Below are positions 8,431 to 56,107 of a stretch of 64,000 bases of DNA, piece after piece. The first letter of the stretch is position 1. Every line of letters begins with the position of its first letter. The DNA lies in assembly GCA_022820825.1 (NCBI GenBank), contig JAJEEU010000042.1, forward strand, positions 62,001-126,000, in the 5' to 3' direction. The DNA comes from Vicinamibacteria bacterium. Lineage in GTDB: Bacteria > Acidobacteriota > Vicinamibacteria > Vicinamibacterales > UBA8438. The position numbers and the translations under genes are program-made. The notes beneath the pieces are model-generated. The model made no database searches and was not told the origin of the DNA. It worked only from the letters and a program-made list of their open reading frames with translations.

Positions 8431-8463
8431 GGGGGACGACGAGCACCGAAGCACTCGTCCCCC
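8431..8463. terminator. GC-rich hairpin after paralogue A
   Basis: GGGGGACGA (8431-8439) pairs perfectly with TCGTCCCCC (8455-8463) across a 15-nt loop. It lies 15 bp after the stop codon and directly abuts the intergenic repeat. There is no T-run, so termination is a guess; it may instead be part of the repeat. Confidence 0.4.
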
Positions 8464-8552
8464 AAGCCGCGCACGGCGCGGCCCGGCAAGCCCGGCGCGG
8501 GGCGAAGGGGTCCCCGCTAGGGCTTGACGGGGGTTTGGGGCGCAGCCCCAAG
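8464..8552 (+). repeat. Structured intergenic repeat, copy 1
   Basis: About 89 bp, found again at 31704-31791 and inverted at 54373-54463. It contains three palindromes: GCCGCGC-ACG-GCGCGGC (8466-8482), GGGG-T-CCCC near 8508-8516, and TTGGGGC-GCA-GCCCCAA (8535-8551). It fills the gap between paralogues A and B. All three copies also share an open frame on the opposite strand reading 'GLRPK-P...GDP.APRRA.RAAPCAA'. Confidence 0.85.
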
Positions 8553-8576
8553 TGGTAGTGGTAAAGGAGATTACCG

Positions 8577-9785
8577 ATGCGAGTTCGATGGCCTGTAGTT
8601 GCGACCTTGGCGTTCGTCGCGTTGGCGGTCGGGTTCACGGTCCTGCCGGAGGTGGTGCAGGGGTCCGCGGCAAGCCAGGCCGAGGACTGGACCGTGCCGC
8701 GCACGCCCTGGGGAGATCCCGATCTGCAGGGGATCTGGACCAACGAGAACACGGGCACGCCGCGGCAGCGCCCGGCCCGTTTCGGTGAGCGCGAGTTCCT
8801 GAACGAGGACGAGGTGGCCGAGCTGGAGCGCCAGGCGCTGGAGCGCTACCAGGCGGCGCTGGCCGCCGACGACGATGCCGGGCCGCGCAGCGCCGCCGAC
8901 GTCGAGCGGACGCAGGGCACGGTGGAGGAAGGCATCTACGGCCAGGAGTACAACAACGTCTGGATGGAGCAGCCGCGCGAGCCGGGTCCGCTGCGCTGGA
9001 CGCGCACGTCGCTCATCGTGGAGCCGTCGCACGGCCAGGTTCCGCCGTTCACGGAGGAGCTGCTCGACCGGGTGGAAGCCCGGGAAGCCGCGCGTGCGCA
9101 TCGCGGCGAGGCGGATACCTGGGAGGACCGCAACCTCAACGAGCGCTGCATGCGGCCGCAGGCCGCGACCGGCCTGCAGGGGACGGTGCGCATCATCCAG
9201 GCGCCGGGCTGGGTGGCGATTCTGCCCGACGGCCTGCAGTACCCGCAGCTCATCTCGCTCGATGCGGGCGAGCACGTGTCCTCCAGGATCCGCGGCTGGT
9301 TCGGGAATGCGCGCGGCCGCTGGGAAGGCGACAGGCTCGTCATCGAGACGACCAACTTCAACGACAAGCAGGACGGCGGTCCCGTCCTGCCGTCGCGCCG
9401 GCCGCTCGCGTTCTTCCTGGGATCGGGCGAGACCCTGCGGCGCGTGGAGACCTACGAGCGCCTGGGCCCGGACCAGATGGCGTATGGAGTGACCACCGAC
9501 GACCCCAGCGTGTACGTGGAGCCGTACACGGTTCTCCGGCCCATGATTCTGGACAACGACTTCCTGATGCTGCAGTCGGGCTGCCACGAGGGCAACTACG
9601 GCATGCCGTTCATCCTGAGCGCAGCCCGCGCCGACGAGGACTACGCGATGCGCGCGGCGCAGGAGGCGGCCGAGCTGCGCAAGCCGGAGATTGCCGCGTT
9701 GCGGGAGCGCACGGAAGAGTGGCTGCGCACGGGCACGGTGCGCGCGCCGGACGCTCCCGTCGAGGAAGTCAATCCGGACCGCTGA
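8577..9785 (+). CDS. Secreted 'PWGDPDLQGIW' family protein (paralogue B)
   Basis: 402 residues, the longest of the eight relatives. It has a Sec signal (to about residue 28), then 'DWTVPRTPWGDPDLQGIW', 'SLIVEPSHGQVPP', 'NERCMRPQAA' with the first conserved Cys, 'NARGRWEGDRLVIETTNF' and 'QSGCHEGNYGM' with the second. An AAAGGAG site lies 7 nt before the ATG. The YciI-like gene starts 7 bp after the stop, so the two probably share a message. Function unknown; the two invariant Cys suggest a disulfide-stabilised extracytoplasmic fold. Confidence 0.88.
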   Translation: MRVRWPVVATLAFVALAVGFTVLPEVVQGSAASQAEDWTVPRTPWGDPDLQGIWTNENTGTPRQRPARFGEREFLNEDEVAELERQALERYQAALAADDDAGPRSAADVERTQGTVEEGIYGQEYNNVWMEQPREPGPLRWTRTSLIVEPSHGQVPPFTEELLDRVEAREAARAHRGEADTWEDRNLNERCMRPQAATGLQGTVRIIQAPGWVAILPDGLQYPQLISLDAGEHVSSRIRGWFGNARGRWEGDRLVIETTNFNDKQDGGPVLPSRRPLAFFLGSGETLRRVETYERLGPDQMAYGVTTDDPSVYVEPYTVLRPMILDNDFLMLQSGCHEGNYGMPFILSAARADEDYAMRAAQEAAELRKPEIAALRERTEEWLRTGTVRAPDAPVEEVNPDR

Positions 9786-15627: not shown

Positions 15628-15704
15628 TGGCACGCCCGGCAGGATTCGAACCTGCGACCCTCGGCTTAGAAGGCCGATGCTCTATCCAGCTGAGCTACGG
15701 GCGC
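15628..15704 (-). tRNA. tRNA-Arg (TCT anticodon)
   Basis: 77 nt including an encoded 3' CCA. It folds as a cloverleaf: acceptor GCGCCCG pairs with CGGGCGT, the D-arm contains AGCTCAGCTGGATAGAGC, the anticodon loop is CTTCTAA with anticodon TCT (plus-strand AGA at 15668-15670), and the T-arm contains GGTTCGAATCC. It is transcribed against the upstream secreted-protein gene with a 1-bp gap. Confidence 0.97.
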
Positions 15705-29748: not shown

Positions 29749-31701
29749 ATGAAGAGAGTCTCCGCGCTAGCCATAGCTTTCGCCGTCACCGCGCTCGCCG
29801 GCCCTCGGGCCCAGGAGGGCATGATCGAGTGGCCCTACGTCGGGGGCGACCAGCACCACACCAAGTTTTCCACGGCAACGCAGGTCACGCCCGAGAACGT
29901 CGATCAGCTCGAGGTGGTCTGGACGTGGGATCCGCAGGAGATGCCGCTGCCGGAGTACGGCACGCGTCCGGGCAGCTTCGAGACGACGCCGCTGATGATC
30001 GACAACGTGCTGTACCTCTCGACCATGTACACGCGCGTGGTGGCGCTGGACGCCGAGACGGGCCGCGAGCTGTGGGCGTTCGACCCGCGCGCCTACGAGA
30101 CCGGCATGGCGGGCGCCAGCCCCGGCGGCTACAAGCACCGCGGCGTCGCCGTGCACGGCGAGGGCGACGACATGCGCGTGTTCATCAACAGCCGCGTCAG
30201 CCTGCACGCGCTCGACGCGCGGACCGGCGCCCCCATCCCGGACTTCGGAGTGGGCGGGCGCGTTTCGCTGATCGAGAACTTCACCAACACGGTCACCGAC
30301 GACATGTTCGACCAGACGTCGCCGCCGGTCGTGTTCGAGGACCTGGTCATCGTGGGCAGCCGGGTGCCGGACCGCATCCAGCGCCGCTTCGATACGCCGG
30401 GCTCGGTGCAGGCGTTCGACGTGCACACGGGCGAGCGCCGCTGGCACTTCTACACGGTTCCGCAGTCCAACGACGCGTTCGGCGCCGACACGTGGGAGGA
30501 TCAGTCGTGGCGCTTCACGGGACACGCCAACGTCTGGGGCCTGATGTCGCTCGACCCCGAGCGCGGCCTGCTGTACGTGCCGACCAGCACGCCCAGCAGC
30601 GACTACTGGGGCGGCCGGCGCCCGGGCGCCAACCTCTTCGCGGAATCCCTGGTCGCCCTCGACGCGCGGACCGGCCAGAGGGAGTGGCACTTCCAGGGAG
30701 TGCACCACGGCGTCTGGGACTACGACTTCACGTCGCCGCCGAACCTGATCACCATCAACGTGGACGGCCGGGAGATCGACGCGGTGGCCGAGGTCTCCAA
30801 GCAGGGTTTCACGTACGTCTTCGACCGGGTGAGCGGTGAACCGGTGTGGCCGATCGAGGAGCGTCCGGTCGATACCGATACCGACGTGCCGGGCGAGGTG
30901 CTGTATCCGACCCAGCCGTTCCCGACGAAGCCGCCGCCGTTTGCCGGACAGGGCACGTCGCTCGACGACGCCAACGACCTGACGCCGGAAATTCACGCGA
31001 TAGCGGTGGAGGAAATGCAGCAGTTCCGGCTGGGTCCGCTGTTCACGCCGCCGAGCCTGCGGGGCACGTTGATGCGGCCGCGGGAGTCGGGCGGCGCGAA
31101 CTGGGGCGGCGCCACGTTCATCGAGGACCTGGGCCTGCTGATCGTCCGCTCGTCGGAGGGGGTGTCGCCGAACCAGGTGTGCGCGACGCCCGACGAGCTC
31201 CCGGACGTCGACGTTCCCTACACGAACAACTGCGCGTGGGGAGCGTCGGGCGGGATCTTCAACGGCCTCGCGGGCGAGGTCCAGCCGCTGCGCAGCCAGC
31301 TCGGCGCCATTCCGCTGATCAAGCCGCCGTACGCGAACCTCGTCGCGATGGATCTCAACCGCGGCGAGATCGCCTGGAAGGTACCGTTCGGCGAGGGCAG
31401 CCGCGTCGTTCGCAGCCACCCGCTGCTGCGCGGCGTAGACCTGCCCGAGCGCCTGGGCACGCCCGGCAACAACGGACCGATGGCGACCGCCAGCGGCCTC
31501 GTCTTCATCGGCGGCGGCGAACCGTACCTGTACGCGTTCGATGCCGCCACGGGCCGCGAGATCAGCCGCGCGCCGACAGACTTCCGGACCAGCGGGAACC
31601 CGATGACGTACGTCAGCGGTTCCGGGCGCCAGTTCATCGTCATCGCCACCGGCGCCGGCCCGGACGCGTCTCTCGTCGCGTTCGCGCTGCCGGAGGGGTA
31701 G
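29749..31701 (+). CDS. PQQ-dependent dehydrogenase-like quinoprotein, glucose-dehydrogenase-like branch (quinoprotein 4)
   Basis: 650 residues; GGGAGGA precedes the ATG. Signal peptide, then a propeller with 'IEWPYVGGDQHHTKFSTATQVTPENV', 'YWGGRRPGANLFAESLVALDARTG' and 'WHFQGVHHGVWDYDFTSPPNL'. The W-D-Y-D signature is intact, unlike quinoprotein 1. 'YPTQPFPTKPPPFAGQG' and 'ANWGGATFIEDLGLLIV' place it in the glucose-dehydrogenase-like branch. It has no haem or membrane domain. The last 12 codons are duplicated beyond an intergenic repeat (31801-31840). It is transcribed away from the cytochrome-copper monooxygenase unit. Confidence 0.92.
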   Translation: MKRVSALAIAFAVTALAGPRAQEGMIEWPYVGGDQHHTKFSTATQVTPENVDQLEVVWTWDPQEMPLPEYGTRPGSFETTPLMIDNVLYLSTMYTRVVALDAETGRELWAFDPRAYETGMAGASPGGYKHRGVAVHGEGDDMRVFINSRVSLHALDARTGAPIPDFGVGGRVSLIENFTNTVTDDMFDQTSPPVVFEDLVIVGSRVPDRIQRRFDTPGSVQAFDVHTGERRWHFYTVPQSNDAFGADTWEDQSWRFTGHANVWGLMSLDPERGLLYVPTSTPSSDYWGGRRPGANLFAESLVALDARTGQREWHFQGVHHGVWDYDFTSPPNLITINVDGREIDAVAEVSKQGFTYVFDRVSGEPVWPIEERPVDTDTDVPGEVLYPTQPFPTKPPPFAGQGTSLDDANDLTPEIHAIAVEEMQQFRLGPLFTPPSLRGTLMRPRESGGANWGGATFIEDLGLLIVRSSEGVSPNQVCATPDELPDVDVPYTNNCAWGASGGIFNGLAGEVQPLRSQLGAIPLIKPPYANLVAMDLNRGEIAWKVPFGEGSRVVRSHPLLRGVDLPERLGTPGNNGPMATASGLVFIGGGEPYLYAFDAATGREISRAPTDFRTSGNPMTYVSGSGRQFIVIATGAGPDASLVAFALPEG

Positions 31702-31704
31702 GCA
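31665..31704 (+). repeat. 40-bp direct repeat, left copy
   Basis: Covers the final 12 codons and stop of quinoprotein 4. It matches 31801-31840 at 38 of 40 positions. The two copies bracket the intergenic repeat at 31704-31791. Confidence 0.85.
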
Positions 31705-31791
31705 GCCGCGCACGGCGCGGCTCGGCAGGCGCGGCGCGGGGCTATGGGGTCCCCGCTAGGGCCTGCCGGGGGTTTGGGGCGCAGCCCCAAG
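31704..31791 (+). repeat. Structured intergenic repeat, copy 2
   Basis: 88 bp matching copy 1 (8464-8552) with the same three palindromes: GCCGCGC-ACG-GCGCGGC at 31705-31721, GGGG-T-CCCC, and TTGGGGC-GCA-GCCCCAA at 31774-31790. It begins 3 bp after the stop of quinoprotein 4 and is enclosed by a 40-bp direct repeat. Confidence 0.87.
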
Positions 31792-31800
31792 CAGGGAAGC

Positions 31801-31840
31801 CGCGTCTCTCGTCGCGTTCGCGCTGCCTGAGAGGTAGGCA
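31801..31840 (+). repeat. 40-bp direct repeat, right copy
   Basis: Repeats the 3' end of quinoprotein 4, differing at two bases. Read in the same frame it encodes 'ASLVAFALPER' followed by TAG, so it is a gene-end fragment without the rest of a gene. Confidence 0.85.
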
Positions 31841-53215: not shown

Positions 53216-54373
53216 ATGAACGACGACAAGAGGTGGGCCTGGCGCGGCCGCGCATGTGTTGCGGCGGCGGCGCTTGTATTCCTCGCCGCATGCGGCGGCG
53301 GGCAGTCGGGTCTTCCCGTTACGGAACCGGCGCCCGCAGCCGATGCGGGGCTGACGAGCGACTTCGTGGTGCGGCCCCTGCCGAACCCGACGTCGGAGGT
53401 GATCCTGAATTGGGCGAAGATCCCCGCCGGCCGCGAGTGGGGCACGACGGCCGGCATCGACATCGACCCGCACGACGGGCACATCTGGGCCTACGACCGC
53501 TGCGGCGGCGGCCTGCGCCAGGCCTGCGAGAATGCCCCGGACCTCGATCCCGTCTTCAAGTTCGATCGCCATACGGGCGAGATGTTGACGAGCTTCGGCG
53601 CCGGTCTGTTCGTCACGCCGCACGGCTTGCACGTGGACGCGGACGGCAACGTGTGGGTAACCGACTGGGAAGGCAACGAGGCGGGCACCAAGGGGCATCA
53701 GGTGATCAAGTTCAGCCCCGAGGGCGAGGAGCTGATGCGCCTGGGCGAAGCGGGGGTGGCGGGCAGCGGCCCCGGCCAGCTCAACCAGCCGTGCGATGTG
53801 ATCACGGCGCCCAACGGCGACATCTTCGTCTCGGACGGCCACAGCGGACAGAATGCGGACCCGCCGGAGGGTGCGACCGGGCGGATCCTGAAGTTCGACA
53901 AGGACGGCAACTTCATCAAGGAGTGGGGCGAGATCGGCTTTCGGCCCGGCCAGTTCCGGACGCCCCACGGGCTCGCCTTCGACTCGCAGGGCCGGTTGTT
54001 CGTCGCCGACCGCGGCAACCACCGCATCCAGATTTTCGACCAGGACGGGAACCTGCTCGACATCTACCACCAGCACGGCCGCGTCAGCGGCCTGTTCATC
54101 ACCGGCGACGACGTGCTCTACTCCATCGACTCCGAATCCGAGGAGAATCGGCATCCGGGCTGGATGAACGGCGTACGCATCGGCCCGGCCGGCGAGGATC
54201 GGCTGACGCACTTCATTCCGCCTCACGCCCACCATACGCGTCCCCTGAACGGTGCGGCGGGGGAGGGCGTCGTCGTCGACGCCGACGGCAACGTGTACGC
54301 GGCGGAGGGGCCGAACTCCCGCGACGCGGCGCAGGGCGGCGTCACGAAGTACGTCGCGGCAGGGGGCTTCTAG
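53216..54373 (+). CDS. NHL-repeat lipoprotein, tandem duplicate (copy 2)
   Basis: 385 residues, lipobox 'FLAACGGG'. It is collinear with the preceding gene over its whole length: 'GIDIDPHDGHIWAYDRCGGG', 'NPTSEVI' and 'GFRPGQFRTPH' are identical, with differences mainly in the signal peptide and loops ('GHSGQNADPPEGATG'). An in situ duplication has been kept intact, suggesting dosage or divergence of ligand. Its stop codon touches repeat copy 3, which leads into quinoprotein 6. Confidence 0.87.
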   Translation: MNDDKRWAWRGRACVAAAALVFLAACGGGQSGLPVTEPAPAADAGLTSDFVVRPLPNPTSEVILNWAKIPAGREWGTTAGIDIDPHDGHIWAYDRCGGGLRQACENAPDLDPVFKFDRHTGEMLTSFGAGLFVTPHGLHVDADGNVWVTDWEGNEAGTKGHQVIKFSPEGEELMRLGEAGVAGSGPGQLNQPCDVITAPNGDIFVSDGHSGQNADPPEGATGRILKFDKDGNFIKEWGEIGFRPGQFRTPHGLAFDSQGRLFVADRGNHRIQIFDQDGNLLDIYHQHGRVSGLFITGDDVLYSIDSESEENRHPGWMNGVRIGPAGEDRLTHFIPPHAHHTRPLNGAAGEGVVVDADGNVYAAEGPNSRDAAQGGVTKYVAAGGF

Positions 54374-54463
54374 ATGGGGCTGCGCCCCAAAACCCCGGCC
54401 AGCGCTAGCGGGGACCCCGTTGCCCCGCGCCGCGCTGGCCGAGCCGCGCCGTGCGCGGCTTGG
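54373..54463 (-). repeat. Structured intergenic repeat, copy 3 (inverted)
   Basis: About 91 bp matching copies 1 and 2 in reverse orientation. The GGGGC-TGC-GCCCC palindrome is at 54376-54388 and GCCGCGC-CGT-GCGCGGC at 54444-54460. Where the others read CTTGGGG, this copy reads GATGGGG, creating the ATG at 54374 used by quinoprotein 6. It is coding in the 'GLRPK-P' frame. Confidence 0.87.
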
Positions 54464-56107
54464 GTGTTCCCAATCGTGCTGAGCCTGTCGGCGGCGCCGG
54501 CGGCGGCGCAGACCACCGCGGAGCTCGTCGGCGACCCGCGGACGCCGGACGATGTCCTCCTGCACAGCATGGGCTACGACCGCAAGAGCTACAGCCCGCT
54601 GGCGCAGATCGATCGCTCTAACATCCACCGGCTGGTGCCCATCTGGAGCGCCAGCGTGATGAACGAGTTCGGCGAGCTGGCCGCGCCGGTCGTCTACGAA
54701 GGCGTCATGTACGTCATCAACGGGCGGTGGACGTTCGCCATCGACGTCGACACCGGGCGCCAGATCTGGCGCACGCCGGTCGTCCTCGAAGAGGGGACGC
54801 GCCGCAATCCGTACAACCGGGGCGCGCCGGTCATCCATGACGGCAGGCTGTTTCGCATCACGCTCGACAACCACGTGCTGGCGCTCGACATGGAGACCGG
54901 CGAAGAGCTGTGGAAACAGAAGTTCGCGGAATCGAGCGAGGGATACTACGCGACGGGCGCGCCGGTGCTGGCGGGCGGCGTGCTGGTCTCCGGGATGTCG
55001 GGCGGCGAGTCCACGACGCGGGGCTTCCTCGACGGCTGGGATCCGGAGTCGGGCGAACATCTGTGGCGCCGCCACACCATTCCCGCGCCTGGAGAGCCCG
55101 GTTCGGAGACCTGGCCAACGGACAGCGACGCCTGGCAGTTCGGCGGCGCGCCGACGTGGCGGTCCGGCTCGTACGACCCGGAGCTGGACCTCGTCTACTG
55201 GGGCACCGGGAATGCCTCACCCTGGAACCCCCAGCCACGCGGAGGGCTGGACAGCCTGTATGCGTCCAGCGTCATCGCCGTGCGGCCCCGCACCGGCGAG
55301 ATCGTCTGTCACTACCAGTACACGCCCAACGACGCCTACGACGTGGACGGCACGGACGAGCACGTACTGGCCGACATCGAGATTGACGGCCGGCCGCGGC
55401 AGGTGCTGTTCCAGGCCAACAAGAACGGCTTTCTCTACGTGCTCGATCGCACCGATTGCAGTCTGATCGCCGCCCATCCCTACGTGAAGGTCAACTGGGC
55501 CACGCACGTCGACCTGGAAACCGGCCGGCCCGTGCTGACCGACCTCTACGAGCAGATCGTGGCCGGCGAGCGGGTCGCCATCTGGCCGTCGCGCGGCTCG
55601 AACGCCGTGCCGATCGCGTTCAATCCGGATACCGGCCTCGTGTACACCAGCACCTGGCACGTGCCGCGCATCGTGCAGATCGAGCCGCCGCAGGAGCGGG
55701 TCATCGGCGGGCGGGCCATCGGCATGTCCAGCCGGTTCCCGGACGTGGAGCCGGGCGAGCTGCTCGGCCACCTGCTGGCGATCGATCCGCTGACCGGCGA
55801 GAAGCAGTGGGAGATTCCGACGACCGATTTCCCGAATTCGGCCGGCATGCTGGCGACGGGCGGCGGCCTGCTGTTCACGGGCAATCTGACCGGCGAGTTC
55901 ATCGCGCTCGACGAGGCGACCGGCGAGACGCTGTGGCAGTTCAAGACCGGCTCCAGCATCAATTCGACGGCGATTACCTACACCCGCAACGGGCGCCAGT
56001 TCGTGAGCGTGGCCTCCGGACTCGGCGGCAGCCTCGCCAACCGCTACGCGCGCGGCATGATCCCGACCGGCGGTTCGGTGTGGACCTTCGCGCTCATGCC
56101 CGACTGA
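54374..56107 (+). CDS. PQQ-dependent dehydrogenase-like quinoprotein with repeat-encoded N-terminus (quinoprotein 6)
   Basis: 577 residues if it starts at 54374. Residues 1-30 ('MGLRPKTPASASGDP...') are encoded by repeat copy 3. The hydrophobic signal core 'VFPIVLSLSAAPAAAQ' follows immediately; a GTG at 54464 would omit the repeat part but leave no basic n-region. The propeller shows 'YDRKSYSPLAQIDRSN', 'YWGTGNASPWNPQPRGGLDSLYASS' and 'CHYQYTPNDAYDVDGTDEH' (catalytic-Asp region). No vicinal Cys pair and no haem site. It follows the two NHL lipoproteins. Confidence 0.88.
   Translation: MGLRPKTPASASGDPVAPRRAGRAAPCAAWVFPIVLSLSAAPAAAQTTAELVGDPRTPDDVLLHSMGYDRKSYSPLAQIDRSNIHRLVPIWSASVMNEFGELAAPVVYEGVMYVINGRWTFAIDVDTGRQIWRTPVVLEEGTRRNPYNRGAPVIHDGRLFRITLDNHVLALDMETGEELWKQKFAESSEGYYATGAPVLAGGVLVSGMSGGESTTRGFLDGWDPESGEHLWRRHTIPAPGEPGSETWPTDSDAWQFGGAPTWRSGSYDPELDLVYWGTGNASPWNPQPRGGLDSLYASSVIAVRPRTGEIVCHYQYTPNDAYDVDGTDEHVLADIEIDGRPRQVLFQANKNGFLYVLDRTDCSLIAAHPYVKVNWATHVDLETGRPVLTDLYEQIVAGERVAIWPSRGSNAVPIAFNPDTGLVYTSTWHVPRIVQIEPPQERVIGGRAIGMSSRFPDVEPGELLGHLLAIDPLTGEKQWEIPTTDFPNSAGMLATGGGLLFTGNLTGEFIALDEATGETLWQFKTGSSINSTAITYTRNGRQFVSVASGLGGSLANRYARGMIPTGGSVWTFALMPD

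Follow-up and report, generated by a model that had tools for sequence, protein, structure and literature searches.

The window analysed here is a stretch of 64,000 nucleotides from a Vicinamibacteria bacterium (assembly GCA_022820825.1, contig JAJEEU010000042.1, positions 62,001 to 126,000 of the forward strand), whose genome (G000) is a draft MAG of 4.2 Mb in 108 contigs. It was compared with two relatives in the same genus, G001 (MAG 277c_3) and G002 (MAG Plut_88874); L-numbers below denote extracted loci. A preliminary description had reported three copies of a hairpin-bearing repeat in the window, and this is borne out by the sequence, by alignment and by model searches (Table 1). About 87 bases are alignable with few differences between copies, a covariance model built from 64 family copies including these three matched exactly three sites in the window (E ~1e-15), and the 17-base motif of hairpin H3 occurs three times against 0.27 expected.

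The copies had been placed between genes for secreted proteins or quinoproteins. The neighbours of copies 2 and 3 do include PQQ/beta-propeller and NHL proteins, but copy 3 is located within the first part (5' end) of its gene and the ORFs flanking copy 1 gave no Pfam match. The window genes at 29749-31701 and 54374-56107 both encode PQQ beta-propeller dehydrogenase-like proteins, the first of which has several similar genes in the sister genomes. A tRNA gene at 15631-15704 (minus strand) is the sole Rfam match in the window.

Table 1. Parts of the three repeat copies in the window, with adjoining features
Feature	Positions	Strand	Basis
Copy 1, additional 5' hairpin H1 (GGGGGACGA ... TCGTCCCCC)	8431..8463	+	Sequence; covarying hairpin at the same position in many copies
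Copy 1, core: H1b AGCCGCGC-ACG-GCGCGGC(C); H2 inner GCGGGG/CCCCGC; H3 TTGGGGC-GCA-GCCCCAA	8464..8550	+	Sequence, alignment, covariance model
Copy 1, 3' tail (AGTGGTAGTGG type)	8551..8565	+	Just upstream of RBS and ATG of the 402-aa ORF at 8577
Copy 2, duplicated 40-bp target, left-hand instance (end of 650-aa PQQ gene)	31665..31704	+	Stop codon 31699-31701; single copy in G002 orthologue L329
Copy 2, core, 3' of stop codon	31704..31789	+	Orthologous G002 site without element
Copy 2, 3' tail AGCAGGGAAGC	31790..31800	+	Sequence
Copy 2, duplicated 40-bp target, right-hand instance, which has a stop codon of its own	31801..31840	+	Flank comparison with L329
Copy 3, core, inverted, within 5' end of 577-aa PQQ beta-propeller gene	54375..54461	-	Covariance model; orthologue L335 without element
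Copy 3, 3' tail (TCTAGAAGCC)	54365..54374	-	Read on +: TAG stop of ORF 53216-54373, beside new ATG
Predicted new N-terminus from element: M-GLRPKTPASASGDPVAPRRAGRAAPCA joined to AWVFPIVLSLSAAPAAAQ	54374..54460	+	Orthologue reads MKN-AWVLPIVLSLS

Copy 3 sits in the signal-peptide codons of the PQQ beta-propeller protein gene. The G002 orthologue L335 (DNA 89% identical) carries no element and starts MKN-AWVLPIVLSLS; the window ORF starts MGLRPKTPASASGDPVAPRRAGRAAPCA-AWVFPIVLSLS, with the element in place of 'KN' and the leader. Translation is thereby predicted to begin in frame within copy 3, with M-KN-AWVLPIV becoming M-GLRPK...-AWVFPIV, and GLRPKTPASASGD is a stretch within this predicted element-encoded start of the protein at 54374. 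The NHL-repeat gene upstream likewise takes its TAG stop codon from the tail of copy 3, immediately ahead of the new ATG. Copy 3 is the one clear in-frame fusion of the element with a gene.

A conserved open frame on one strand had been taken as a functional signal. The minus-strand frame MGLRPKPPAxxSGDPxAPRRxxRAAPCAA is indeed open in 117 of the 124 copies where it was found, and in about 87% of G000 copies; however, two other frames are open in 85% of the latter, and in G002 copies almost all six frames are open. The element is 80% G+C, composition alone leads to an expected openness of about 78%, and the core length is mostly not divisible by three. The openness of this frame thus follows from the sequence itself, and we rejected it as a coding signal on the grounds of base composition and length.

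Structure and covariation of the element

The core consists, in order, of hairpin H1b (A[AG]GCCGCGC-ACG-GCGCGGCY), an outer stem around GCGGGG...CCCCGC (H2), hairpin H3 (TTGGGGC-GCA-GCCCCAA) and a tail of about 12-14 nt. The genus form of the tail is ...GCCCC-RTCTRAY-GAWGCY, often ATCTAACGAAGCC in G000 and GTCTGATKGAAGCY in G002. Directly upstream of the core, many copies carry a further hairpin, H1, the arms of which vary between copies while their complementarity is kept (for example GGGGACGGC/GCCGTCCCC, GGGGACTGC/GCAGTCCCC and GGGGCCACAC/GTGTGGCCCC). In some copies a second core lies about 170 bp from the first, the two being separated by a linker and H1. The reported length of 90 bp is thus right for the core, but the element is often longer. 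At L076:1020-1330 an inverted 5' module adjoins an upright element, so that pieces of the element in opposite orientations are combined. In two groups of G000 copies (L067, L068 and L084; L070, L077 and L082), the 86-nt cores are the same or almost the same, while the 3' tails differ and so do the 5' hairpins, which are still self-complementary.

Among 64 diverse copies, 11 of 28 base pairs show changes on both sides, and double-change cells number 130 against 42 +/- 4 in shuffles; the signal is lost when the partner columns are slid by 1-3 positions. Strong compensatory changes are thus present in the stems. Single-change intermediates in the core are about equally G.U and A.C (20 versus 18), as compared with 7 G.U and 2 A.C in H1. 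The data thus single out no RNA strand. A structured RNA is a possible reading of the repeat, but the core gives no sign that one transcribed strand is under selection. By inspection, the element has no U-tract terminator, on which basis an intrinsic terminator was rejected, and no terminal inverted repeats are apparent at the ends of the aligned copies.

Copy number and host range

A blast search of the whole of G000 returned at least 40 full-length matches, and the central hairpin pattern matched 108 times against 11 for a reversed-pattern control. The family thus has roughly 100 copies in the source genome, not the three first counted, and G001 and G002 contain dozens each. As further copies and strong compensatory changes were both found, neither a lack of other copies nor a lack of compensation, the two outcomes that the preliminary description had named against its proposal, was observed. 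These counts come from draft MAGs in which contigs often terminate in element copies, and copies were sampled by region. The automatic gene-context tally was left out of orientation statistics because in such G+C-rich DNA spurious frames run into the element.

At E<=0.01 blast matched 62 of the 100 relatives searched, in many cases weakly. The covariance model, run across the phylum, matched in seven of 297 sampled genomes, all belonging to the order of the window, and a pattern scan of named genomes gave, among the matches listed, only Acidobacteria/Vicinamibacteraceae MAGs. No match outside the order Vicinamibacterales was found in these searches; on this sampling the family is specific to this order of the Acidobacteriota. 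A search for plasmid carriage of the repeat gave no match.

Empty sites, flank duplications and tandem units

The site of window copy 2 in G002 (L329) has a single gene end and no element. In the window, the element follows the gene end, and after it the final 40 bp occur once more; this duplication is present in the filled allele only. The site of copy 3 is likewise empty in L335. Three further pairs of filled and empty loci differ in that target bases have been replaced: about 22 in L018 (empty in L185), about 60 in L065 (empty in L223) and, in the opposite direction, about 5 in L288 (empty in L014), although part of these differences may reflect later divergence. Empty sites thus occur both ways, with G000 filled and G001 or G002 empty, and with G001 filled and G000 empty; some other sites are occupied in both sister species. 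At L065 the G000 copy immediately precedes a start codon. The corresponding position in the sister species (L223:6128-6290) is occupied by a leader containing a TATACT-like -10 box; the promoter seems to have been replaced.

Flank duplications of 13, 32, 37, 40, 57 and 78 bp were found, the one of 40 bp being that at window copy 2. Those at L001, L013, L071, L078, L096 and L147 begin immediately after the tail ...GAAGC(C). Duplications that take in the end or the beginning of a gene have an intact stop or start codon in both copies, as expected if gene-breaking insertions are lost. Five high-scoring duplications lie directly after the tail among 155 solo copies, against 10 of 3079 mismatched flank pairs above the same score. 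As flank duplication is seen in only about six of some 155 solo copies, most insertions leave none. At the 5' junction, TA is not preferred above background (4 of 57).

In tandem arrays each unit ends in the tail, and internal start points differ. A preceding tail was found for 19 of 42 truncated copies, a handful of these 42 being assembly gaps, and for 12 of 153 intact ones. Identical cores occur in unrelated flanks, and the nearest relative of a copy lies in the same genome in 77% of cases (38% when shuffled), which indicates that amplification is species-specific. That H1 and the tail can differ where the core is identical suggests gene conversion, or else that the ends are made anew with every insertion. 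Taken together, the sequence comparisons show the repeat to be a mobile structured element. The preliminary proposal of a REP/MITE-like element, new and dispersed and with its hairpins conserved, is upheld by further copies, compensatory changes and empty sites.

Route of movement and relation to known repeats

We tentatively interpret the repeat as an order-specific family of non-autonomous multi-hairpin elements that would move as a folded single strand, with retroposon-like copying favoured, and give this reading a probability of roughly 0.45. The moving unit would be the structured 90-bp core with its short 3' tail, and in many cases there is a hairpin/linker module or another core in front of it. 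An enzyme acting in trans would copy the folded strand, probably with a fixed 3' end, into a nicked target by end priming, with variable duplication or loss of target bases. Where a copy lands at a gene edge, the host would be affected incidentally, through the gain of a start or stop codon, the replacement of a leader and possibly a change in mRNA ends.

A fixed 3' end, variable target duplications or losses, and 5' truncation form the signature of target-primed copying, as established for LINE and SINE elements. The pattern found here resembles it, and the combination of variable duplications, deletions and 5'-truncated units favours end-primed copying over cut-and-paste transposition; the fixed-length target duplications that DNA transposons and their MITEs would leave are not seen. 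Against this, truncation is mostly confined to tandem units and duplications to few copies; retroposon-like movement is thus the leading but unproven route. A fuller version, a bacterial SINE-like element whose short structured RNA would be inserted by target-primed reverse transcription through a trans-acting enzyme, leaving variable duplications and 5'-truncated copies, is speculative and rather unlikely.

The preliminary description had advised looking for a transposase with matching ends, and none was found. Reverse transcriptases (RVT_1) are patchily distributed, with none in G001, G002 or several element-rich relatives. The single RVT_1 protein of G000 is retron-type and matches the PADLOC profile for retron type I-C (RT-Toprim); its gene, at L113:1369-2403 near the end of contig C12, is matched over its whole length, about 335 of 568 profile positions being covered. 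There is no element beside the RT loci examined, and no similarity between the element and these loci was found. The patchy distribution and the absence of the element from the retron locus speak against an RT as mobiliser. A Y1/RAYT mobiliser was rejected, as G000, G001 and G002, which are incomplete MAGs, gave no Y1_Tnp (PF01797) match. The MAG assemblies may lack the mobiliser gene.

A second account, possible though doubtful, is a REP-like DNA element whose single-stranded hairpin is moved by a strand transferase, of HUH/Y1 type or another, the gene for which lies elsewhere or has since been lost; duplications and deletions would then arise from repair. The genus genomes hold no Y1_Tnp match, and IS200/REP transposition would not be expected to leave duplications of 13-78 bp at the flanks. 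On the other hand, the hairpins covary without strand preference, the copies are intergenic and numerous, and the two-core units recall REP dimers; REPs for which such movement is proposed have been described (PMC3733652).

It is unlikely that the repeat is old and immobile, with inherited copies, gene-converted cores, arms corrected as quasi-palindromes, and tandems and duplications produced by replication template switching at hairpins. Such a history would accommodate the identical cores with different 5' hairpins and tails, the sites common to sister species and the truncated units that are mainly second in a tandem pair, but empty orthologous sites in both directions require gains or precise losses, and the duplication at copy 2 exists in the filled allele only. 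Least probable is a cis-acting RNA element (mRNA 3'-end stabiliser, terminator or leader) spread through usefulness where it lands, since its strong, covarying stems near gene ends and starts are offset by the missing U-tract, the lack of any Rfam match within the element even at lax thresholds up to E<=1, the absence of a G.U excess over A.C in the core, and the fact that copies in the window and at empty sites point either way with respect to adjacent genes.

Of the defining features tested for REP/RAYT, MITE and RPE, the repeat lacks one or more in every case. REPs are single hairpins of 20-40 bp with GTAG or CGTC at one end (PMC3733652). The Vicinamibacterales repeat shares with REPs and BIMEs the high-copy intergenic palindromes, conserved stems and dimer-like organisation, and with CGTC REPs the want of a dedicated transposase (PMC3733652); it differs in its core of about 90 bp with three hairpins, its 3' tail, its flank duplications and the absence of Y1 from G000, G001 and G002, and no GTAG- or CGTC-tagged single hairpin is consistent among the aligned copies. 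Rickettsia palindromic elements (RPEs) are palindromic repeats of about 150 bp able, like copy 3, to fuse in frame (PMC10969869). Whereas they are noted for in-frame insertion inside genes, the present repeats are mostly intergenic and usually not a multiple of three; beyond the one clear fusion at copy 3, frame openness is as expected from composition, and preservation of an open frame on insertion into genes is not upheld as a feature of the family. MITEs such as Correia, ERIC and BOX are, similarly, short non-autonomous interspersed elements that alter gene edges (PMC10969869), but our repeat has no visible terminal inverted repeats and no parent IS was found; instead of a short target duplication of fixed length, its insertions show duplications varying from 13 to 78 bp or have lost target bases. 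The msDNA-like repeats of Nannocystis exedens (Lampson and Rice 1997, as cited in PMC6868368) are also dispersed structured repeats proposed to have been retro-inserted in a bacterium; they are described there as resembling retron msr-msd, whereas the Vicinamibacterales element has no similarity to RT loci that we could find. Our literature search, incomplete in coverage, found no publications on such repeats in Vicinamibacterales. The repeat is best filed in the REP/RPE/MITE-like class as a new variant, its mechanism unproven.

These results add a new mobile structured repeat family, its mobility supported by empty sites, to a poorly studied soil phylum, and copy 3 offers an example of a repeat rewriting the start of a gene. 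Since the insertion pattern (variable long duplications or deletions, a fixed 3' end and truncated tandems) is unlike that of the usual movers of small repeats in bacteria, the family provides a clear test case for whether short non-coding bacterial elements can move in a retroposon-like manner. If the SINE-like reading were true, such an element would be present in a major soil phylum.
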